Positions 3,868 through 25,672 of a stretch of DNA of 64,000 nucleotides are shown here, one piece after another (within the stretch, counting starts at the first letter, position 1; every line of letters starts with the position of its first letter). The stretch comes from Bacilli bacterium. Its GTDB lineage: Bacteria > Bacillota_I > Bacilli_A > RF39 > UBA660. The notes under the pieces were generated by a model. It was not told the DNA's origin. It did not search any database and saw only the letters and a program-made list of their open reading frames with translations. The stretch is taken from the NCBI GenBank assembly GCA_017436345.1, contig JAFSDH010000005.1, positions 62,001-126,000 on the forward strand, in the 5' to 3' direction. A program made the translations under genes and the position numbers.

Positions 3868-4533
3868 TTACATTCTTTTCATTTTAACTTTTGGCATACT
3901 AGATAATTTATCTATATCTATACTTGTACCTTGATTTGTTGACATTTCCCTTAAAGGTATATCTAATGATTTTACTTTTAAAACATTAGCTAATTCTTTT
4001 AAATTATTATAATTTTTCAAAACTTGCGTAATTGATACATCAACTGGTTCTTTTACTGTACTCATTCTAATAGCTGCAATATACGCTAAAAGTCTCGTAT
4101 CAATAGCTCTAAACTTATCATTCATAATACTTTCATCAGAAAGGTATTCATTACCATAATTTGTACTAACACGTCTCGCTGAAATATCACTAGTAATTAA
4201 AATATCAACATTTTTTTCACAAAACGGATTATATTCAAATTCATCCGGATTTAAATCAGTCATTCCAACTACTGCCAAAGATATAGATTCACTACCATTC
4301 GCATGAGACTCTGTATCATCAAACAATTCCAAAGTTTCATCAGAAATTAATCCTATTTTATTTTGTTCTTTTCCAGATAAAATACCATTTTCAACAATAG
4401 ATATCGTATCCTCATATCTTGTATTATGATGAAATTTATCATCAATTACTTCTATTGGTGTACTAATTACATCCGCTATAGAAGTTTCTACATAATCTAA
4501 TACTTCTTTCTTTTCTAAAATAACATTCTCCAT
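3868..4533 (-). CDS. Hypothetical protein, weakly reminiscent of ADP-ribosyltransferase folds
   Basis: The 221-residue soluble protein has no family I can assign. Residues ~33-55 read FHHNTRYEDTISIVENGIL, which has the shape of the H-x-T...I-x-x-x-GI start seen in DarT/PARP-like folds, and SLAVVG and ILITSDISA follow. This likeness is weak and could be chance. SD AAGGAAG precedes ATG 4533. A promoter at 4557-4586 and the sirtuin terminator upstream make it its own transcription unit. It lies directly downstream of a sirtuin, which would suit NAD or ADP-ribose chemistry but does not prove it. Confidence 0.5.
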   Translation of the reverse strand: MENVILEKKEVLDYVETSIADVISTPIEVIDDKFHHNTRYEDTISIVENGILSGKEQNKIGLISDETLELFDDTESHANGSESISLAVVGMTDLNPDEFEYNPFCEKNVDILITSDISARRVSTNYGNEYLSDESIMNDKFRAIDTRLLAYIAAIRMSTVKEPVDVSITQVLKNYNNLKELANVLKVKSLDIPLREMSTNQGTSIDIDKLSSMPKVKMKRM

Positions 4534-5448: not shown

Positions 5449-5496
5449 ATTTACCCCATCTTTCAAAAATTATATTAACATTACAATATCTTTTTA

Positions 5497-7908
5497 TCAA
5501 ATATTTTTTCTAATCGGTTTCTTCCTAAGAGACTTTGCTACCTCAACCATATCATCCACAATAAAAGTTCCACCTGAATCTCTTCTATTTCTAATCGTTT
5601 TTGATAAAGTTTCTTCATTACGACCATTTAATAATATATAAGTAGGAATATTTAAGGTTTTAGGTACTAAATCTGATGTACCATTTCCTATCATAATAAC
5701 ATCATCAAGTTCCAAATTAATTTTAAGTTGTCCTAATTGATCAACGAATCCCTTTTTACTTGCTTTAGCATAAGAATTAGACAAATCTCCAACATGTACA
5801 ATATCTCCAACAAAAGATAAATGATTCAACTTCGCTTTTTGAACCAATGACAACCCATTAGTATAAATCGCAATATCATAACCTTGACATTTTAGTTTTT
5901 GAATTCCTTCTTCAACTCTAGGACAAATACGAGTTTCTTTTTTTGCATAATCAACTTCTTCTTTAATATATGTCTTACAGAATTTGTTGTAATCAATTTT
6001 TTCTCCTAAAATACTACTACATCTGTTTTTAATAAACACAGAAAAATTTTCAACAGTTCCAAATCCTTTTTCTTTTTTGCAAGCAGACATAAACTCTAAA
6101 TAAGCCCAATCCATTTCTTTACCCAGTTTAATAGTTTCTTCATCACATAAATTTATTTTCATTTTCTTCAAAGTAGAAACTAAAACCTCTTGTCTATCTT
6201 GGTCTTCTACTAATGTTCCATCAATATCTATCATTGCAACCTTTTTTCCGCTTGTCGCAACAATATTTCTTTTAATTTCCTTAAAATAGTAATCTAAATC
6301 TAATCTATTCATATCAAAATTATCTAACCCATCATTTACTAATTCAAAATTAACCTTCGAATTATATGAAACTAATTTACCACTAGAATTCAATTTATAA
6401 ACTTTCTTTTTAGGCTCATCTTTAACTGCAATAATTCTATTTGAACTTGAAGTTAACTCAACAAGTTCTCCATCCTCAAAAATATATAATGGTGAAGAAT
6501 TAGAACTTCTATTAATTATTTCTTGAAAAAGAGTTGGATCATTTCTATAAAATACATTCATCAAACTATTCATAATATCATTATCATTATTTAAATAATA
6601 ATTTAATAAACATTCACTTAAATATTTTTTAGAATTAGTTTGTAGTAAATCATCTTCCATCTTTCCAAAAGTACCAATTTTCTTCACAGTACCATCAGCA
6701 AACTCTACACAATAACTTTGAGTATTTTTATGTGATATTTTTGTAATTTCATCAACATCACAAGACATATTTAATCTATTACAAATATTATCAACAATTT
6801 CACGAATCTTAGAATTATTACCCTTATCAGTTTTAATAATCATACCATCAGTATTAACTTCAATTACGTCTACCCCTAATTTTTCTATTTGTAAATATAC
6901 TAAATACATAATTAAAGCACCATTTATAACAACAGATTTACCTATATTAGGATTATAACCTTTACTATCTTTATTATTAAAACAATCAATAAAACTATTT
7001 ATAAGTCTCTTATAATATTTTTGTTCTATTTTTTTCTCACTCTTTAATTTAATCCTTCTATCACGCAACATTTCATATCTTTCAGGATAATCACAAATAT
7101 CTTTTAACCATTCATTATTTATAATCATAGATGGTCCAAAACTATTAAAATCAATATATAAATAGTTATTATTCCCAGTATTATCAACAACATTTTTTAA
7201 ACCATCTTTTAAACCTTGACCACTTATACTAACAGGTGTTTTTCCAAAATTTACAACAAATTTTTCTTGCTTACTTGCAACTATCTTATCAAATAAATTA
7301 CGAAGTTCAGGAATTTCCTCCATATATTTACTAAGATTTTTATCTATTTGAATAGAATGAATCTTATTTCCATTAAAAGAAACAATGTCTTCCATAAGTC
7401 TTCCTTTAGAGTGAAAAACAAACTCATTAGGTAAAGAATATTCATCAATAAGACCAAGTCTCCAATCAAAATAATCTTTTCTTAAAGAATATATTTCTTT
7501 TATAAAATCTAATTTATATTTTAACTCTTCTATAACTTTCTTTAATTCACTATCTTGAATTTCATCAGACACATTATAATTAAAAACACGTCTATTTAAA
7601 TTTAATAAACAATTATCTAAACGTACATCATTAGATCTAACAATTTCCTGTGTAACGTCTAAAGATATTGGTAAATAACTATTAGTATCAGTATAGGAAA
7701 CATCCCCATCTAAAGTTCCACATTTTAATAAAGATACAATTTTTTTATTATCATAATGATAATTATCCCCACTAATAAATAAACTATCTTTATTTTCATT
7801 AAAAAATTTTCTTAAACTCTCAACATCATCATAAATAAAATATCTTTTATCATCTTTTTCAAACATTATAAACCAATGATTACCCATTGATTTAAACGTA
7901 TAAAACAT
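5497..7908 (-). CDS. Phage-type family-B DNA polymerase fused to a HAD-family hydrolase
   Basis: The 803-residue protein has two parts. Residues ~1-160 look like a degenerate DnaQ-type exonuclease: GDNYHYDN at 47-54 recalls Exo II, but no D-x-E Exo I motif is seen. Residues ~240-400 carry a family-B palm of the NTDG type seen in phage polymerases: motif A IDFNSFGPS (Asp253), motif B K300-x3-N304-S and motif C NTDG (Asp354). Residues ~555-795 are a HAD hydrolase: DIDGT (561-565), YTN (Thr near 683), a Lys-rich segment near 718 and GNGTSD (Asp near 746). The first acidic residue of HAD motif IV is Asn. It has its own consensus promoter and stands alone on a chromosome region without other phage genes. 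The biochemical role is unknown. Confidence 0.7.
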   Translation of the reverse strand: MFYTFKSMGNHWFIMFEKDDKRYFIYDDVESLRKFFNENKDSLFISGDNYHYDNKKIVSLLKCGTLDGDVSYTDTNSYLPISLDVTQEIVRSNDVRLDNCLLNLNRRVFNYNVSDEIQDSELKKVIEELKYKLDFIKEIYSLRKDYFDWRLGLIDEYSLPNEFVFHSKGRLMEDIVSFNGNKIHSIQIDKNLSKYMEEIPELRNLFDKIVASKQEKFVVNFGKTPVSISGQGLKDGLKNVVDNTGNNNYLYIDFNSFGPSMIINNEWLKDICDYPERYEMLRDRRIKLKSEKKIEQKYYKRLINSFIDCFNNKDSKGYNPNIGKSVVINGALIMYLVYLQIEKLGVDVIEVNTDGMIIKTDKGNNSKIREIVDNICNRLNMSCDVDEITKISHKNTQSYCVEFADGTVKKIGTFGKMEDDLLQTNSKKYLSECLLNYYLNNDNDIMNSLMNVFYRNDPTLFQEIINRSSNSSPLYIFEDGELVELTSSSNRIIAVKDEPKKKVYKLNSSGKLVSYNSKVNFELVNDGLDNFDMNRLDLDYYFKEIKRNIVATSGKKVAMIDIDGTLVEDQDRQEVLVSTLKKMKINLCDEETIKLGKEMDWAYLEFMSACKKEKGFGTVENFSVFIKNRCSSILGEKIDYNKFCKTYIKEEVDYAKKETRICPRVEEGIQKLKCQGYDIAIYTNGLSLVQKAKLNHLSFVGDIVHVGDLSNSYAKASKKGFVDQLGQLKINLELDDVIMIGNGTSDLVPKTLNIPTYILLNGRNEETLSKTIRNRRDSGGTFIVDDMVEVAKSLRKKPIRKNI

Positions 7909-7931
7909 ATCATAACCCCCATTGCAGTGTT

Positions 7932-7960
7932 ATATTACCATTACAAAATAAAAATGTCAA
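7932..7960 (-). promoter_or_regulatory. Consensus promoter of the polymerase-HAD gene with an overlapping inverted repeat
   Basis: -35 TTGACA (7960-7955), a 17-bp spacer and -10 TAATAT (7937-7932). An inverted repeat AAGTGT-n7-ACACTT at 7959-7977 abuts the -35 box and could be an operator. Confidence 0.75.
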
Positions 7961-8617: not shown

Positions 8618-9043
8618 TTATACAATCTTATCTATAACATCTGATAAATACTCACCAGATTCTAAAACTATTTTCTTTGCAAAAGTATTTTTTTCACAAT
8701 CAGAAATATGTTCATCCCATCTAGAGAAAAAACCATTAACAAACTCTTCAGAACTATTTCTAGAAATAGCTCTATTTTTATATTCATCTTTTAATTCACG
8801 TTTAGGATATACTAAATAATATTCAATGCCAAGTTCATTTAATCTCTCAAGCATTACACCATGAGTAGTAATAAATACATAATCATACTTAGAAGAAAGA
8901 GCAAGTAAGCATTCGACATACATTTTCTCCCAACCTTCTTCCTTACGAAAGAAGTGAGTATCAAAATCAATATAATTAAGATCCTTAAATTTACTTAAAG
9001 AACTTTTACCTATATTAGAAAAACCACTTATAATAATTCCCAT
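8618..9043 (-). CDS. Small P-loop protein, kinase-like
   Basis: The 141-residue protein starts with a compact P-loop, SGFSNIGKSS, then YIDFD and YDYVFITTHG, which resemble the substrate-binding and Walker B strands of small nucleotide kinases. It is shorter than most kinases (160-220 aa) and has no clear lid, so activity is uncertain. SD GAGGTG lies a few bases before ATG 9043. It is probably transcribed with the P-loop gene downstream. A specific substrate is not proposed. Confidence 0.6.
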   Translation of the reverse strand: MGIIISGFSNIGKSSLSKFKDLNYIDFDTHFFRKEEGWEKMYVECLLALSSKYDYVFITTHGVMLERLNELGIEYYLVYPKRELKDEYKNRAISRNSSEEFVNGFFSRWDEHISDCEKNTFAKKIVLESGEYLSDVIDKIV

Positions 9044-13754: not shown

Positions 13755-14903
13755 TTACTTATTTAATTGTTGATACTGTTTTCGTAAATCTGCAAATGCC
13801 TCTCTAACAGGAGACATTGAGTCAGCAACTGATTGAATAAATTTAGAAAGTCTATTTCGAATATCTTTCATAGATTTTTCAAATTTTTCAGTATTTATAT
13901 CAATAAAATCTTTTGACTCTGTAATTGCTATTGCCTCGTCAAGTATTTTACTCGTATCTATTAATAACACTTTTAAACATTCAAATTGTTCTTTATTAAA
14001 CATTTTATTATGTGCCACTATATTTCTCAATTTGCCAATTTGTTTAATTGTATCTTCCATATTTTCAGACAGCTTTTTATTTTCAAAAAACCTTTCCCAA
14101 TCACTTTTAGGTCTAATATTAGATATCATTTCTCTTAATTCCTTATCTGTCACTTTGGACAAATCTGCATTATCATCCAAAAATTCATTAACATCCGCAA
14201 CTTCTAAATCAGTCCATCTTTTTTCAAATAAAAATTCCTGCAAAGTTCCGAAATCTAAATAATAAAAAAAGTTTTTTATTTGGTCTATTTCTTTTTTTCT
14301 TTTATTATTTGTTTTTGTTTGAATTTTCTCTTTAACCTTCTTTTGAAATTCTTCAGAAGTTGTTTTCTTAAAATATTCTTTTTCAAATTGTGAAGTGTAA
14401 ATCAAATATAATAGCTTTCTTAATTTTCTTTCAAAAGAATTCAATTTAGGATAAATTTTATCACAATAATACTCAGAAACATAATCATAAGAAGGAATAA
14501 CGATATAATCTTTTAAATCTTTAGAATCTTCTTTTAATAATATACTATTAATATGTTCTAAAAATGGAATAGCTGAAGCTTTTTGGTTAGTTTCAATAAT
14601 TATATCCAAATAATGTGTCGAATTAACTACGATAAATTTATATTTTATTTCCATTGCTTTATCATTTATATTTAATTTGAAAGTTCCTCTTATTATTCGA
14701 TAAAATAAATCCTGTAATCTTTTTTCCACATGCACATTATTATCTTTTATTTCTTCAAGTGTCAAATTATTATCAGTAGCATTAAAAATTTTTTTAAACG
14801 TATCCGAAAGACTAGTCTTTAATACAATATAATAATTTCCATCTTTATCTTTTTTTAACTCTTCCTCTTTTCTAAGGAAAACATAACTATTAGTAATCAA
14901 CAT
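13755..14903 (-). CDS. HEPN-domain protein with an RNxxxH motif, candidate RNase
   Basis: The 382-residue cytosolic protein has two recognisable parts. Residues ~150-185 (FERKLRKLLYLIYT...FEKEYF) and ~285-330 form a helical HEPN region. The second contains R293-N-I-V-A-H298, the R-x4-6-H active-site motif of HEPN ribonucleases. The first 140 residues are beta-rich and unassigned. The C-terminus is a charged helix. It lies 40 bp downstream of the PIN gene on the same strand, so the two are almost certainly co-transcribed. Pairing of two nuclease folds suggests a toxin or defence module. This combination is not one I can name. Confidence 0.65.
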   Translation of the reverse strand: MLITNSYVFLRKEEELKKDKDGNYYIVLKTSLSDTFKKIFNATDNNLTLEEIKDNNVHVEKRLQDLFYRIIRGTFKLNINDKAMEIKYKFIVVNSTHYLDIIIETNQKASAIPFLEHINSILLKEDSKDLKDYIVIPSYDYVSEYYCDKIYPKLNSFERKLRKLLYLIYTSQFEKEYFKKTTSEEFQKKVKEKIQTKTNNKRKKEIDQIKNFFYYLDFGTLQEFLFEKRWTDLEVADVNEFLDDNADLSKVTDKELREMISNIRPKSDWERFFENKKLSENMEDTIKQIGKLRNIVAHNKMFNKEQFECLKVLLIDTSKILDEAIAITESKDFIDINTEKFEKSMKDIRNRLSKFIQSVADSMSPVREAFADLRKQYQQLNK

Positions 14904-14943
14904 ACTACTCCCTCACCTTATTATCTATTGCTAACAACATTAT

Positions 14944-15939
14944 TTATCCATAATAATCCATTTGATCTAAATAATCAGTTAAATCAATAATTTGTCCTTT
15001 TGTTACTTCATATTTAATAAAATTCTTATTTTCATCCAAATATATTGTAACCTCATTTACTAAATCATCTAACATAATATCTTTTGTTGTTTTATAAATA
15101 TAAGAAGAACACTCTGGATTTTCTTTATCATATACTGATTCATAGGGATCAAAAACCACAAATCGACCATTTAAGCCTATATTAAATGTAATAATTATTT
15201 CAATCTGCGTAGAACTAACACTCACAATATCAACTCTGCCAAATTCATATCCACCAATATCATATTCTATAATATCCGTGGCACTAGATGATGTTATGGA
15301 TAAACTTTCATGTTCACCCAAGAAATTGCTATGAAGTATATAATGGGATATTTTTTGTTCGAACTCATCAGTATAAAGATAAACGTTTTTAGTAACTTCA
15401 CCAATATTTTTATAAACAGAATAATTAGAATGACTCTCTATTCCATCAATAAATCCACTATCGTTAGATAATATAAAACTTTCATCATAATCTGACGTAC
15501 TTAAAAAATTTATTATAGATAATACAATCATTGCATCTGGAAATTCTTTAGGTTTATTAATTTCAAAAGGTTTTTCCATATTAAAATACCACTTATTTAC
15601 ATCATCAATATTAATATAATCTGAACATTTTAAGATTTTTATTTTGTATTTATCTATAAAATCATCGATTGCTTTTACATTATTATTTATTAAATCTTCA
15701 AAAAAATTTGATGGAAGACCTCTTTTAAAATATCCGGACTTTTTCGACATCTTATCTTCATTAATTGACTCTTTTACATGTTTTTTCATTTCATCAACAA
15801 CTATGTTTGGTAAATAAACATCGATATTGCTACTTAATTTTATTCCATCAAGGAATTTAATAATTGTCCCTTTATCAAATGCATAATTATTTGGTTTTCC
15901 AAAAATATTAGTATCAAAAAAAATTGCAATTTTTTTCAT
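14944..15939 (-). CDS. PIN-domain protein, candidate RNase with a C-terminal beta-rich domain
   Basis: Residues 1-~180 form a PIN-like nuclease domain (PIN_8/DUF4935 style). FFDTNIF holds Asp9, LPNIVVDEMKKH holds Glu50, FPDAMI holds Asp135 and LSNDSGF holds Asp160, which together match the acidic metal-binding set of PIN RNases. Residues ~200-331 are an unassigned beta-rich domain, so at 331 aa it is much longer than VapC toxins (~130 aa). SD GAGGTG precedes ATG 15939. It is the first gene of a two-gene operon with the HEPN protein. Function beyond predicted nuclease is unknown. Confidence 0.7.
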   Translation of the reverse strand: MKKIAIFFDTNIFGKPNNYAFDKGTIIKFLDGIKLSSNIDVYLPNIVVDEMKKHVKESINEDKMSKKSGYFKRGLPSNFFEDLINNNVKAIDDFIDKYKIKILKCSDYINIDDVNKWYFNMEKPFEINKPKEFPDAMIVLSIINFLSTSDYDESFILSNDSGFIDGIESHSNYSVYKNIGEVTKNVYLYTDEFEQKISHYILHSNFLGEHESLSITSSSATDIIEYDIGGYEFGRVDIVSVSSTQIEIIITFNIGLNGRFVVFDPYESVYDKENPECSSYIYKTTKDIMLDDLVNEVTIYLDENKNFIKYEVTKGQIIDLTDYLDQMDYYG

Positions 15940-17217: not shown

Positions 17218-17367
17218 TATTCTTTCTATGATAACTTTATCTTTATATGTGAATATTCGTACTTTATCATGATATTTAAATCCTAGTTCTTGCAACCATT
17301 TTCCTTTTAAAATGATGTAAGGTTTAGAATAAAAATCTTGGTAAACAGAAAGTTTTCTAGTCTTCAT
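17188..17367 (-). CDS. SymE-like small protein (AbrB-type fold)
   Basis: About 59 residues. The core KPYIILKGKWLQELGF, then DKVRIFTYKDKVII, matches the SymE toxin family pattern (P-x-I-x-L-K-G-x-W-L-x-x-x-G-F). SymE proteins have an AbrB-like fold and were described as SOS-controlled RNA-cleaving or nucleoid-binding toxins. I place the start at ATG 17367 with SD AGGTG six bases upstream. Earlier ATGs at 17388 and 17373 have no well-placed SD. It overlaps the integrase end by 11 nt, so translation is coupled. No antisense antitoxin promoter was identified. Confidence 0.65.
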   Translation of the reverse strand: MKTRKLSVYQDFYSKPYIILKGKWLQELGFKYHDKVRIFTYKDKVIIERIKDPNLNKKI

Positions 17368-18391
17368 ACTCATCACCTGATTGTCCATTATTTTCTATAT
17401 TAGAGATTATTGAATGTTTAACGTGTTTTGTCTTTAAATCTTTTGGGGACATATCAACATATATCTTAGTTGTTTCAATATTAGTATGTCCCAAAAGATC
17501 CCTAAGTGAAAAAGGGTCACCACCATTAATAATAAAGTGAGTAGCGAATGTATGTCTAAACTTATGTGGATTCATCCTAATTTCTTTGTTAAATAGTTTC
17601 TTAGACCTTTGACTAAGAATTCGATACACCATCTGTGTATTTATCCCATGACCATGCATTGGTTCATTAAACTCACTATGAAATTTAATAAAAAGTGGCC
17701 CTTTTTCTACGCCTTTTAGAACTTCTCTCCTATAAACATTTAATATTCTCTCAGTTTCTTTTGAATAATAGACCGTACGAAATGTATTAGTCTTAGTAGC
17801 GTATATATAAATACTACGTTCTTGGTAGTTGATATCTTCCAGTTTGATTCTTACGAGTTCACTATTTCGAATACCAGTATCTAATAAAACTATAATTATA
17901 AGTAAGTTTCTTAACTCTGACTTATATCGTAAATCAAACGATGTTAATAACTTTCGTATCTGGTCTATCGTAAAGTAATCTATTTTCTCTTTTCTTTGTT
18001 TTTTTGGTTTAATATTATGAGCTGGATTAGCAATTAAATACCCATCTCTTTCAAGATAGTTAAAGAAAGCTCTTAGTGCCCTAGCGTGACAATTATAATA
18101 CCCTACTTTGTTTTTAGAATATTTACTTTCAAAATAAAATTTTATCTCACTTTCTGTTAAAGTTTCTAAACATTGAACCTTCTTAATTTGCACTAAGAAC
18201 TTTCGGAACGTTTGTAGTTTCTTCTTATAAAAATACATTGTCTGTTCTGCTAAGCCACGCTCACGCATGTTGTTGAAAAAATATTCTACTGCATTATCAT
18301 ACAATAGATTACTTTGCGTGTTTTGTTTTCTCTCTCCTGTTTTAAATTGTTGAAAAAAATTTGTTAATTCATTGATTGTTTCTTCTGTCAT
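17357..18391 (-). CDS. Tyrosine recombinase (integrase)
   Basis: The 344-residue XerC/D-like recombinase has an N-terminal SAM-like core-binding domain (~25-120) and a catalytic domain with the complete set R175 (TGIRNSEL), K200 (ATKTN), H276 and R279 (HKFRH), H302 (GHTNIETT) and Tyr311. It lies 141 bp from the attR repeat and intact tRNA-Trp, transcribed away from it, as is usual for the integrase that moves such an element. It is predicted to exchange strands at the anticodon-loop core. SD AGGAG lies upstream of ATG 18391. Confidence 0.92.
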   Translation of the reverse strand: MTEETINELTNFFQQFKTGERKQNTQSNLLYDNAVEYFFNNMRERGLAEQTMYFYKKKLQTFRKFLVQIKKVQCLETLTESEIKFYFESKYSKNKVGYYNCHARALRAFFNYLERDGYLIANPAHNIKPKKQRKEKIDYFTIDQIRKLLTSFDLRYKSELRNLLIIIVLLDTGIRNSELVRIKLEDINYQERSIYIYATKTNTFRTVYYSKETERILNVYRREVLKGVEKGPLFIKFHSEFNEPMHGHGINTQMVYRILSQRSKKLFNKEIRMNPHKFRHTFATHFIINGGDPFSLRDLLGHTNIETTKIYVDMSPKDLKTKHVKHSIISNIENNGQSGDEYED

Positions 18392-22163: not shown

Positions 22164-23105
22164 CTAACCACCTATCTCAATATCAGCAATATCTTTCCAA
22201 TTAGGAGGAAATCCCATTCTATCTAGTACTTTATCAATAGATATACTTTTTAAATTATATTCTAAATTATTAAGTACATGTTCTATTTCAAGAATCAAAT
22301 TTTTCACTTCATTTTGTGTAAGTAATTGTCTAATAATGATTAAAAGAGCAAACAAATCATTTTTACCATAAATATATTCATCATTAATCTTTTCAATATT
22401 TAATAAAGAATGATATTTAGTATCATCTATAAATCTTTGGGTTTTATTTTCAAACAAAATATCTTCATGAGCACATAAATTACGATAATTAGCAAGTATT
22501 GGTAAATAATTAGTTAATGTTTCTTGATCAATATCATAAATATTTGCAATTGCTAAACGATCTTCCAATTTTAATATTGAAAACATCTCACTAACAATAC
22601 CAAAAGATAATACTTTAACTAATACCCATAAAGGAATATAACCATAATTACTCAAATAATGGCTTGTTGCCGAGTGTTGACTACCATTAACACGAATTTG
22701 TCTTTTCATCTTCTTTAACAAATCATTTATCTGTCTTTGTTTTTCTGGACTATTATCAAAGTTCTTAGTCTTTAAATAATCACTTTCTTTATAACCATAT
22801 TTCTTTGATAACTGATATGAAATAATAGATTTAATATTATTCTCTATCATTAATAAATTCTTAAATATAATATTACGAAATTGTCTATCAAATAAGAATA
22901 AACTATATAACTCTTCAAAAGTAGTACCTTCTATATATCTCTTATTATTAGCAGATTTCATAAATAAATGACGATAACCATTCAAAAAGAAGTAATTTTC
23001 ACGAAGTAACACATTTTTAGCAAATTCTTCATCATCAATCACTAAACCTTTATACTTAAAAATCTCTAATTGCTCATCCAGGTTCTTGAACTGCTTGTCC
23101 CTCAT
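22164..23105 (-). CDS. Abi_2 (AbiD/AbiF-like) HEPN protein
   Basis: About 313 residues of the Abi_2 family. The N-terminus FKNLDEQLEIFKYKGL and ENYFFLNGYRHLF, then LYSLFLFDRQFRNIIFKNLLMIENNIKSII, are typical. The C-terminal HEPN motif NYRNLCAHED (R208...H213) is intact, so RNase-type activity is possible. Homologues give abortive phage infection in lactococci. I place the start at ATG 23105 with SD AGGTGA, rather than at GTG 23114, which is inside the SD. It lies immediately upstream of htrA with no gap, an unusual partnership for an Abi gene. Confidence 0.85.
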   Translation of the reverse strand: MRDKQFKNLDEQLEIFKYKGLVIDDEEFAKNVLLRENYFFLNGYRHLFMKSANNKRYIEGTTFEELYSLFLFDRQFRNIIFKNLLMIENNIKSIISYQLSKKYGYKESDYLKTKNFDNSPEKQRQINDLLKKMKRQIRVNGSQHSATSHYLSNYGYIPLWVLVKVLSFGIVSEMFSILKLEDRLAIANIYDIDQETLTNYLPILANYRNLCAHEDILFENKTQRFIDDTKYHSLLNIEKINDEYIYGKNDLFALLIIIRQLLTQNEVKNLILEIEHVLNNLEYNLKSISIDKVLDRMGFPPNWKDIADIEIGG

Positions 23106-23194
23106 TATTCTCACCTACTATTAAATTATAACATACAACATATTAAATTGTATGAAATTTTAAAGAAAAAGACATGGAATAAGTATATTTTACA

Positions 23195-23617: not shown

Positions 23618-24706
23618 TTAATAATTTATTACTTTCTTTAAAAATTCATTTGAACCTTTATACCATTTATAAATTTTTAATTTCTTTTCAGAATATTTCT
23701 TCAATTCTTCATCAGTATAATTAGAATTATTATTTTTAAAACGCTCAATACATCTCTTATAACAAGTATCTATACAAGTACGCATAATAATAATTTTTCC
23801 TCTTAAAAGTGAAATATCTTTAATACAATGAAACTGTGCACAATCAATAACAATTACTTTATCATACTTCTTACAATAATCAATTATCTCTTGATAGATT
23901 AAATCAAAATCCTCAAAAAGATTAGGTAATTTTTCATATTTATTTCTAAAATAATTACCAAGTTCTTTATTAATACCACTCGTTTTATTAAATCTATTAT
24001 CACTAAAAATTTCATCAGTATCAATAATTAAATAATTATCATCATATATCTTAGTAAAAAAAGATTTACCACTACCAGATTGACCTGTTATATTAATTAT
24101 TTTTTCAGATGTTAAATCTTTTATTAATGGTTCACGATCAATACAAATAGTAATTAAATTTTTATCTTTTATCTCTTCCAATACTTCTTTTATTTTTTTA
24201 TAACAACCATGTTCTTCATCATCTTCAACTTTTAAAAACCCATCAAAAGTTTGTAATACTAAATCTATATTACTTTCATTAACTTTATCTCTAATAATCA
24301 TTAAACATAATTCTTTATAATCTTTAAATGATAAAAATTTCAAACATTCAAAATATACAATTTCTGGTAACTTAGATTTTAAATATAAATCTATAGCAAT
24401 ATCTTCAGTAACTTCCCTAGGATTCTTAACAATTATCTTATTAGTGCGATAAGCACCTTTAGGATTATTTCCTTCATAAAACAAAACTTCTGCATCATCA
24501 GGTAATTCTACATCATACAAAACATCCCCACGAAGTAACCATCTAAGCATATGTTCATCATCAGAAAAATTAAAACCACCTATATCTTTAGGTTCTTTTG
24601 CATCTGGATTCCATAAATCAGAAACATTAACTTGATCAAGTTTATATTCGAATCCTCCGGCATGAGAAGTAATACCATTCATAACTCTTAAATATTTTCT
24701 TTTCAT
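23618..24706 (-). CDS. Two-domain protein: N-terminal unknown domain plus P-loop kinase
   Basis: The 362-residue protein has an N-terminal ~180 residues (GGFNFSDDEHMLRWLLRGD...YRTNKIIVKNP) resembling sequence found in phage-linked proteins of unknown function. A C-terminal kinase-like domain starts near 205: ITGQSGSGKSFFTKIY is Walker A, YLIIDTDEIF and VIVIDCAQFH are the substrate and Walker B strands, and R-x-x-x-R-F supplies lid arginines. The fusion suggests a kinase with a regulatory or substrate-binding head, but the substrate is unknown. It lies between the NUDIX gene and the hypothetical gene at 23209 in one operon. Confidence 0.65.
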   Translation of the reverse strand: MKRKYLRVMNGITSHAGGFEYKLDQVNVSDLWNPDAKEPKDIGGFNFSDDEHMLRWLLRGDVLYDVELPDDAEVLFYEGNNPKGAYRTNKIIVKNPREVTEDIAIDLYLKSKLPEIVYFECLKFLSFKDYKELCLMIIRDKVNESNIDLVLQTFDGFLKVEDDEEHGCYKKIKEVLEEIKDKNLITICIDREPLIKDLTSEKIINITGQSGSGKSFFTKIYDDNYLIIDTDEIFSDNRFNKTSGINKELGNYFRNKYEKLPNLFEDFDLIYQEIIDYCKKYDKVIVIDCAQFHCIKDISLLRGKIIIMRTCIDTCYKRCIERFKNNNSNYTDEELKKYSEKKLKIYKWYKGSNEFLKKVINY

Positions 24707-24715
24707 AATTTTCCC

Positions 24716-25138
24716 CTATTTAATACTATTAATATATTTATCAATAAATTGCTTTGTTGGACTATAAATATTATTTGGTAAATTATCTAAATCAAACCAT
24801 TTCCATTCATCTTCTTTAGTAGGTTCCATAACTTTTAACTCTCCAGAATAACTATTAGCAATTACCTGAATAGTCACATAATGCTTATTAGGTTGAATAT
24901 CATCAGACACACTAAATACATATAAATCACTAATATCTAAATTAGTTTCTTCCTTAACTTCACGAATCGCACCATCTAAAATAGTTTCATTAAACTCTTG
25001 CTTTCCACCAGGAAAAGTCCAAGTATCTGGCTCAAAAATTCCTCCAGTATCTTCTCTATTAATAGCACGATGTCCTAGTAATATCTTATTACCATCTTTT
25101 AACATAACACCAAGACCTACTTTAACTTGATTTTCCAT
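24716..25138 (-). CDS. NUDIX hydrolase
   Basis: The 140-residue protein has a complete Nudix box, G-x5-E-x7-REVKEE-x-NL, beginning GGKQEFNETI at about residue 43. Such enzymes cleave nucleoside diphosphates linked to another moiety, often oxidised or non-canonical nucleotides. The form VGLGVMLKDGNKILLGHR...FEPDTWTFPGGKQ resembles MutT/dCTP pyrophosphatase-like members, but specificity cannot be read. It is the first gene of a three-gene operon with the P-loop protein downstream. Confidence 0.88.
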   Translation of the reverse strand: MENQVKVGLGVMLKDGNKILLGHRAINREDTGGIFEPDTWTFPGGKQEFNETILDGAIREVKEETNLDISDLYVFSVSDDIQPNKHYVTIQVIANSYSGELKVMEPTKEDEWKWFDLDNLPNNIYSPTKQFIDKYINSIK

Positions 25139-25164
25139 AATATCACCTAAATAAATTATAACAT

Positions 25165-25194
25165 AAAATAAAAAGTCAGATATAAATCTGACCT
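25165..25194 (-). terminator. Intrinsic terminator of the P-loop gene 25193-25672
   Basis: Perfect GTCAGATTTATATCTGAC hairpin then TTTTTATTTT. Confidence 0.8.
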
Positions 25195-25672
25195 AAAAAG
25201 TATTTAAATCTTTATACGTTAAATATACTACTTTATCTTTATATTCATCTAACTTTTTTAATTTATCTTTTTCATGTTTAAAATATAATCTAGCTACTCG
25301 AATCATATCATAAAACTGAAATAAAGTTGGAGGATAATTATACTTTTCTTTACCTAACCTTTGCTTAAACCAACGCTTAACAACTCTTAAATAAACTCTA
25401 TATTTAGATATTTTTAAATAATATATTTGATCACACTTATCTAGTCCCTTATAGAAACGACTCCTTCCTACATCTTCTATAATCCAGGATTTCTTATTTA
25501 TTATTTTATTAAATAATCTTTCGACTTCACTATCACTTCTTTTAACATGATCATGTTCATCATCATAAACTAAACAATCAAGCTCATAACACTCTGTATT
25601 ATACTTTTTTGCTAGTTTCTTTGAAAGTGTTGTTTTACCAGAACCCGATGGTCCTATTATATATATCTTCAT
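25193..25672 (-). CDS. P-loop kinase-like protein (FlaR/topology-modulation type)
   Basis: The 159-residue protein has Walker A IIGPSGSGKTTLSKKL at its start, then YELDCLVYD, SWIIEDVGRSRFY and the arginine-rich YLRVVKRWFKQR. This is the layout of the adenylate-kinase-related family annotated as DNA topology modulation protein FlaR, whose substrate is not established. It is a single gene between two terminators. Confidence 0.75.
   Translation of the reverse strand: MKIYIIGPSGSGKTTLSKKLAKKYNTECYELDCLVYDDEHDHVKRSDSEVERLFNKIINKKSWIIEDVGRSRFYKGLDKCDQIYYLKISKYRVYLRVVKRWFKQRLGKEKYNYPPTLFQFYDMIRVARLYFKHEKDKLKKLDEYKDKVVYLTYKDLNTF

Follow-up and report, generated by a model that had tools for sequence, protein, structure and literature searches.

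The window, which is the whole 64-kb stretch of DNA that was analyzed, comes from a Bacilli bacterium with a genome of 1.7 Mb, where it is part of a contig of 219 kb. On its minus strand the window carries a gene that joins a family-B DNA polymerase (PolB) of phage type to a HAD phosphatase. The main features of this locus are as follows.

5497..7908, minus strand: PolB-HAD fusion gene, an uninterrupted open reading frame of 803 aa plus stop
7264..7908, minus strand: inactivated 3'-5' exonuclease region (residues 1-215), with substitutions in Exo I-III
6253..7263, minus strand: PolB palm, fingers, and thumb (residues 216-552), the best-conserved part of the fusion protein
5500..6252, minus strand: HAD-superfamily phosphatase domain (residues 553-803), PF00702
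7916-7920, minus strand: ribosome-binding site of the fusion gene, GGGGG
7932..7960, minus strand: promoter of the fusion gene, TTGACA-17-TAATAT with TG ahead of the -10, sigma-A-like
17357-18391: tyrosine recombinase, about 10 kb from the fusion

The preliminary description had proposed, from the letters of the sequence, that a phage-type PolB and a HAD phosphatase share one frame, and profile searches and structure prediction bear this out. The polymerase part matched PHROG_1252, "DNA polymerase" (E 2.5e-35, residues 110-554), and the HAD part exceeded the Pfam cut-off for PF00702 (E 8e-9, residues 556-747). Pfam, run on the 803-aa protein, found the HAD alone and detected no polymerase, so that ordinary annotation would probably label the gene product "HAD hydrolase"; as a fusion, it is not covered by the family libraries used. 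AlphaFold2, given an alignment of 43 viral-contig homologs and one second fusion, modeled residues 1-550 as a PolB with a mean pLDDT of around 90 (mostly 80 to 96 in the palm, fingers, and thumb), and residues 240-400, proposed earlier as the palm, fall within this fold. Foldseek matched the model to the solved archaeal polymerases 9N, KOD, Tgo, and RTX (E about 1e-11) and, in BFVD, to phage polymerases (E 1.6e-30). A search of solved structures with the single fusion sequence gave no match, but an alignment profile did, placing motif A of the fusion on the SLYPS motif of archaeal PolB in the PDB without gaps.

The gene is chromosomal, as originally suggested. The contig that holds it also contains the ribosomal-protein operon, including rpoA and secY, about 25 to 45 kb from the fusion, and because the host RpoA is 87% identical to that of a congener, the contig can be taken as host chromosome and not as phage or foreign contamination. 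The further statement that no other phage genes lie nearby was nearly right, the exceptions being the tyrosine recombinase and an open reading frame at 8618-9043. The latter encodes a 141-aa P-loop-like protein that matches PHROG_4182 (phage, unknown function; E 5e-36) and has no Pfam or NCBIfam match; it is possibly a second captured phage gene.

As a class, promoter-like matches are not commoner than in shuffled sequence (28 versus 30.4). The consensus promoter assigned to the fusion is nonetheless credible, because the two other fusion loci that we found (in genomes G288 and G487) also carry TTGACA-17/18-TATAAT-like promoters just upstream, and each fusion copy has a ribosome-binding site. 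All-against-all BLAST of the three loci found no gene common to them besides the fusion. The sirtuin gene and two P-loop kinase-like genes noted beside it are absent from the G288 and G487 loci and are thus not part of a unit with it, and we rejected the idea that fusion, sirtuin, and kinases make up a conserved operon or defense module. With a promoter-like sequence and ribosome-binding site of its own at every locus, the fusion probably acts as a solitary gene. A KtrA-like neighbor has no close ortholog in sister species.

Several other features of the window are also worth recording. The 17-mer TTGTAATGNTAATATAA has two occurrences in the 64 kb and no more, at 5470-5486 and 7930-7946. They lie at the -10 regions of the fusion gene and of the sirtuin gene downstream of it, 21 bp ahead of the ATG in each case. 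The 17-mer was not found in the loci fetched from other genomes, and it is possible that these two genes are coregulated in this species only. Adjoining the sirtuin gene, at 3868-4533, is a gene for a 221-aa protein with no significant match in Pfam, NCBIfam, PADLOC, or PHROG; its stretch HHNTRYEDTISIVENGIL resembles an ADP-ribosyltransferase by eye only. A cluster at 23618-25672 encodes a NUDIX-like protein and two more P-loop kinase-like proteins (362 and 159 aa).

Active site of the polymerase part

We compared the active site of the three fusions with that of 93 unfused homologs. The palm motifs in the window are as follows.

7132..7152, minus strand: motif A, DFNSFGP (residues 253-259), with D253 kept and the steric-gate Tyr replaced by G258 (codon 7135-7137)
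6985..7011, minus strand: motif B, KRLINSFID (residues 300-308), with K300 and N304 kept and YG replaced by ID
6844..6855, minus strand: motif C, NTDG (N352-T-D-G355), with the catalytic D354; invariant in the 93 homologs and three fusions

The palm residues singled out in the preliminary description (D253, K300 and N304, and NTDG) show no variation when the protein is aligned with phage polymerases. The three fusions all retain D253, S256, P259, R285, K289, K300, N304, N352-T-D-G, and Y399, so the metal-binding Asp residues and the fingers Lys/Arg are preserved. The exonuclease region had been called degenerate, and the alignment goes beyond this, since its catalytic residues are substituted in every fusion: D to T/K and E to K in Exo I (D and E in 90/93 homologs), N to D in Exo II (N in 92/93), and Y to E and D to K in Exo III (Y and D in 91/93).

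The most informative features, which were missed in the earlier reading, are that the steric gate is lost and motif B changed. At the steric-gate column, which aligns with the Tyr of archaeal SLYPS in the PDB profile alignment, all three fusions have Gly and all 93 homologs have Tyr, turning SxYP into SFGP. In motif B (KxxxNSxYG), the K, N, and S remain, but NSxYG has become NSFID; the YG columns hold Ile-Asp in 3/3 fusions, whereas Gly is found in 93/93 homologs and Tyr or Phe in 91/93. The presumed DNA-binding motifs are altered as well (GGLHG to QGLK(D/S) and KDVNNY to (K/R)NT(Q/G)SY), and for this reason the fusion may not copy any template.

Substitution of the steric gate in B-family enzymes usually costs catalytic efficiency too. 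In the phi29 polymerase, the incoming nucleotide is received in a pocket made by Tyr254 and Tyr390, with its sugar stacked on Tyr254 (PMC4974454). Judged by motif position, the Tyr replaced in motif A corresponds to phi29 Tyr254, and the Tyr replaced in motif B, now Ile, should be the equivalent of Tyr390. The B-family Tyr is a highly conserved steric gate against NTPs whose substitution reduces sugar selectivity, and in Pol epsilon an asparagine of the fingers serves as a second sensor (PMC10639073). The retained N304 is probably the counterpart of this asparagine, again going by the motif. A later paper (PMC4215692), citing Cozens et al. 2012, describes a steric-gate mutation that together with E664K made the Tgo polymerase a polymerase of long RNA. 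Because catalytic residues are kept while selectivity residues have been swapped identically in three genera, we read the fusion as a case of neofunctionalization and not of decay.

HAD domain

The HAD domain, described earlier as complete-looking, does have all four motifs intact, including motif II (T683) and motif III (K715/K719). Its principal features, with the nearest unfused relative, are as follows.

6214..6228, minus strand: HAD motif I, D561-x-D563-G-T565, invariant in the three fusions and an unfused relative
5935..6201, minus strand: predicted helical C1-type cap (residues 570-658) with the signature CKKEKGfGTvENF, modeled as four helices that separate HAD motif I from motif II
5671..5688, minus strand: HAD motif IV, G741-x-G-T-S-D746; GNGTSD, GDGTSD, and GNGTSD in the fusions
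L114:432-1229: unfused HAD relative, 34-36% identity

The G288 copy also matches PF00702 (E 3.5e-12). Motifs I and II are separated by an insert of ~90 residues, whose predicted cap helices are locally confident in both models. The remainder of the HAD model is of low confidence (mean pLDDT of 54 for the HAD), the structure obtained from two sequences being too weak for comparison, and we attribute this poor modeling to the small number of homologs. For the two copies tested, the best NCBIfam model was that of the noncanonical pyrimidine nucleotidase YjjG (TIGR02254; E 3e-8 and 5e-11), with scores of 33 and 42 bits that are far under the cut-off of 160. Small metabolites are the usual substrates of capped HADs, and end phosphatases of the PNKP type are uncapped, or C0 (PMC8069645). 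The suggestion that the domain acts on nucleotides or DNA ends is therefore plausible in its first half, for which YjjG is the best NCBIfam model, and less likely in its second, given the predicted C1-type cap; a nucleotide or pyrophosphate is the better guess.

The nearest unfused relative is a free-standing 265-aa protein in genome G132. HAD relatives were not found in the phages or viral contigs searched, so the domain looks host derived.

Distribution and origin of the fusion

The fusion is not unique to this assembly, as full-length, uninterrupted copies occur in two further genera of the host's family. One, 64% identical, is in G288:C5 (contig CAMXBB010000005.1, an uncultured Firmicutes metagenome-assembled genome), and the other, 55% identical, is in G487:C33. 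All three fusion-bearing genera belong to one family, in which the gene is sporadic, at about one species per genus (1/9, 1/9, and 1/11 genomes in the three genera). Two overlapping draws of genomes from the family and order (386 and 385) yielded these three fusions only, a repeat profile search of apparently the same family genome set found no others, and none turned up outside the family in 237 genomes spread across the class. The fusion is known from three sequences only. RpoA is 67% identical between fusion genomes, so the fusion could be old, or could equally have been passed from one genus to another.

A phage-borne fusion was also sought and rejected for the sets searched: there was no match at 80% coverage among 50,697 phage records, plasmids gave matches of the unfused-polymerase type only, and neither a motif-A pattern nor a fusion alignment found the fusion in viral contigs. 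The three fusions come together as a single clade (support of 1.0) on a long stem in a tree built from the polymerase part. This clade groups with viral contig L009 (0.925) and a polymerase from G381 (0.995), a genome of the same family. The G381 gene lies among portal, terminase, primase, and integrase genes and is hence in a prophage. Overall, the nearest unfused relatives of the polymerase part are phage and prophage enzymes of the PHROG_1252 type, and tree and gene context suggest that it was probably captured from a phage infecting this bacterial family.

Both domains are under purifying selection, as judged by dN/dS among the three fusions, with the palm and fingers most tightly constrained (63-68% identity and dN/dS of about 0.25 to 0.28 for the palm/fingers/thumb region). 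Taken together, the idea of a domesticated phage polymerase agrees with a gene that is chromosomal, apparently monocistronic, under purifying selection, and nested by phage and prophage polymerases in the tree.

Possible functions and comparison with known systems

The explanation that we favor, and to which we would give an even chance, is that the polymerase part of the fusion is a PolB without proofreading that admits ribonucleotides, and that it works together with a HAD of the nucleotide type. A PHROG_1252-type phage or prophage PolB would have been captured by a Bacilli-type host lineage, would have lost proofreading, and, joined to a capped HAD phosphatase of host type, would have been retooled. 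The two-metal core would have been kept while the sugar gate went from Tyr to Gly and the motif-B YG to ID. The product would be a monocistronic nucleotidyl-transferring enzyme that uses NTPs, or other 2'-bulky or damaged nucleotides, at low fidelity, and its C-terminal HAD would remove phosphate from a small phosphorylated partner in that reaction, for instance a nucleoside monophosphate or pyrophosphate. Ribonucleotide use, the small-molecule HAD substrate, and the coupling of the domains are what we infer here, and other changes in the pocket could restore sugar selection. The job of the fusion now probably differs from DNA copying. The features seen predict NTP incorporation, shifted back to a dNTP preference by G258Y.

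What such an enzyme does for the cell is a more tentative matter. An antiphage or stress role is a guess that follows from the gene being solitary and patchily distributed, and a single-gene defense or stress enzyme is a doubtful assignment at this stage. A fuller version can be put forward, still well short of an even chance, in which a naturally evolved PolB derivative, acting as a ribonucleotide polymerase or a nucleotide-signal synthase, with its proofreading removed and a nucleotidase serving as effector or processing domain, constitutes a single-gene immune or stress enzyme. Alternatively, the fusion might be an antiphage system like DRT1, in which nongenomic nucleic acid is made by the polymerase, with or without a template, and the small-molecule enzyme joined to it acts as effector. 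We consider this somewhat doubtful. DRT1, a reverse transcriptase plus nitrilase that defends as a single gene (PMC13275509), is a precedent for joining a polymerase and a metabolite enzyme, and the patchy, solitary occurrence of the fusion with its own promoter fits. PADLOC-type genes are also found at all three loci, within about 15 kb (AbiD and a PDC-M34B match in the window, HerA/mad8 and PDC-M03A in G288, and PrimPol and PDC-S01 in G487), although such neighbors support a defense role weakly. PADLOC-DB has no model for the fusion protein (no match at E 0.1), and its promoters look constitutive. This alternative is compatible with the ribonucleotide-permissive PolB that we favor, to which it adds a biological role.

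Some of these neighbors merit description in their own right. At 13755-15939, a HEPN_Swt1-like protein (subthreshold in Pfam; PDC-M34B, E 4e-10) adjoins a PIN_12 protein, making them a candidate toxin-antitoxin or defense pair. The AbiD-type abortive infection protein is encoded at 22164-23114 (PADLOC E 2.5e-61). Near the G487 fusion, at L132 382-2751, a PrimPol-helicase protein (PADLOC PrimPol, E 4e-74) resembles the primase-helicase of TOTE-type conflict systems.

It is unlikely, in our view, that the fusion is a repair or lesion-bypass DNA polymerase whose pocket has opened to admit damaged nucleotides or template bases, with the HAD sanitizing damaged nucleotides, like YjjG, or cleaning 3' ends. 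The retained catalytic core, lost exonuclease, opened pocket, and proximity of the HAD to noncanonical pyrimidine nucleotidases would suit such an enzyme, but occurrence in about one species per genus is unlike a housekeeping repair gene, a HAD of the capped type predicted here is unlikely to clean DNA ends, and bypass does not require a Gly steric gate. A decaying prophage remnant, accidentally fused to an adjoining HAD gene and with its polymerase function gone, could account for the altered exonuclease and polymerase motifs and the long branch, but is very improbable given that three genera have kept an open frame of 800 aa, all metal-binding residues, and the same motif substitutions, that dN/dS is well under 1, and that no fused phage version was found in the sets searched.

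If the ribonucleotide-permissive reading is true, evolution has arrived at a steric-gate change of the sort by which engineers convert a PolB into an RNA polymerase. It would also reveal a route from phage replication enzymes to new cellular nucleotidyltransferases, parallel to the defense enzymes based on reverse transcriptases, and would offer a natural, mesophilic scaffold for making RNA or XNA. The open-licence literature searched yielded no report of a natural B-family enzyme with fixed loss of the steric gate and a kept catalytic core.

Among known systems, the PHROG_1252 phage polymerases (for example those of Paenibacillus phage LincolnB, Staphylococcus phage phiST9-C, and Weissella phage PWc) have the same length and the same exonuclease, palm, fingers, and thumb order, and share the motif A Asp, motif B Lys/Asn, and NTDG at about 22% identity over residues 1-550. 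Unlike the fusion, they keep the exonuclease residues, the steric-gate Tyr, and the motif-B YG, lack a HAD, and reside in phage genomes, for example near primase genes. The engineered Tgo steric-gate mutant with E664K likewise has a PolB fold with the gate Tyr replaced, but it is laboratory made, on a hyperthermophilic archaeal backbone, and without a HAD; its motif-B YG is not known to be altered. The nucleotidase YjjG/YfnB (TIGR02254) has a capped HAD, as is predicted for the fusion, but YjjG stands alone, and the cap signature of the fusion is distinct. PNKP also contains a HAD phosphatase within a nucleic-acid enzyme, although its HAD is uncapped (C0) and accompanied by a kinase domain, with no polymerase. 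Finally, DRT1 resembles the fusion in that a single gene joins a nucleic-acid polymerase to a small-molecule hydrolase, with a reverse transcriptase palm in place of PolB and a nitrilase in place of the HAD.
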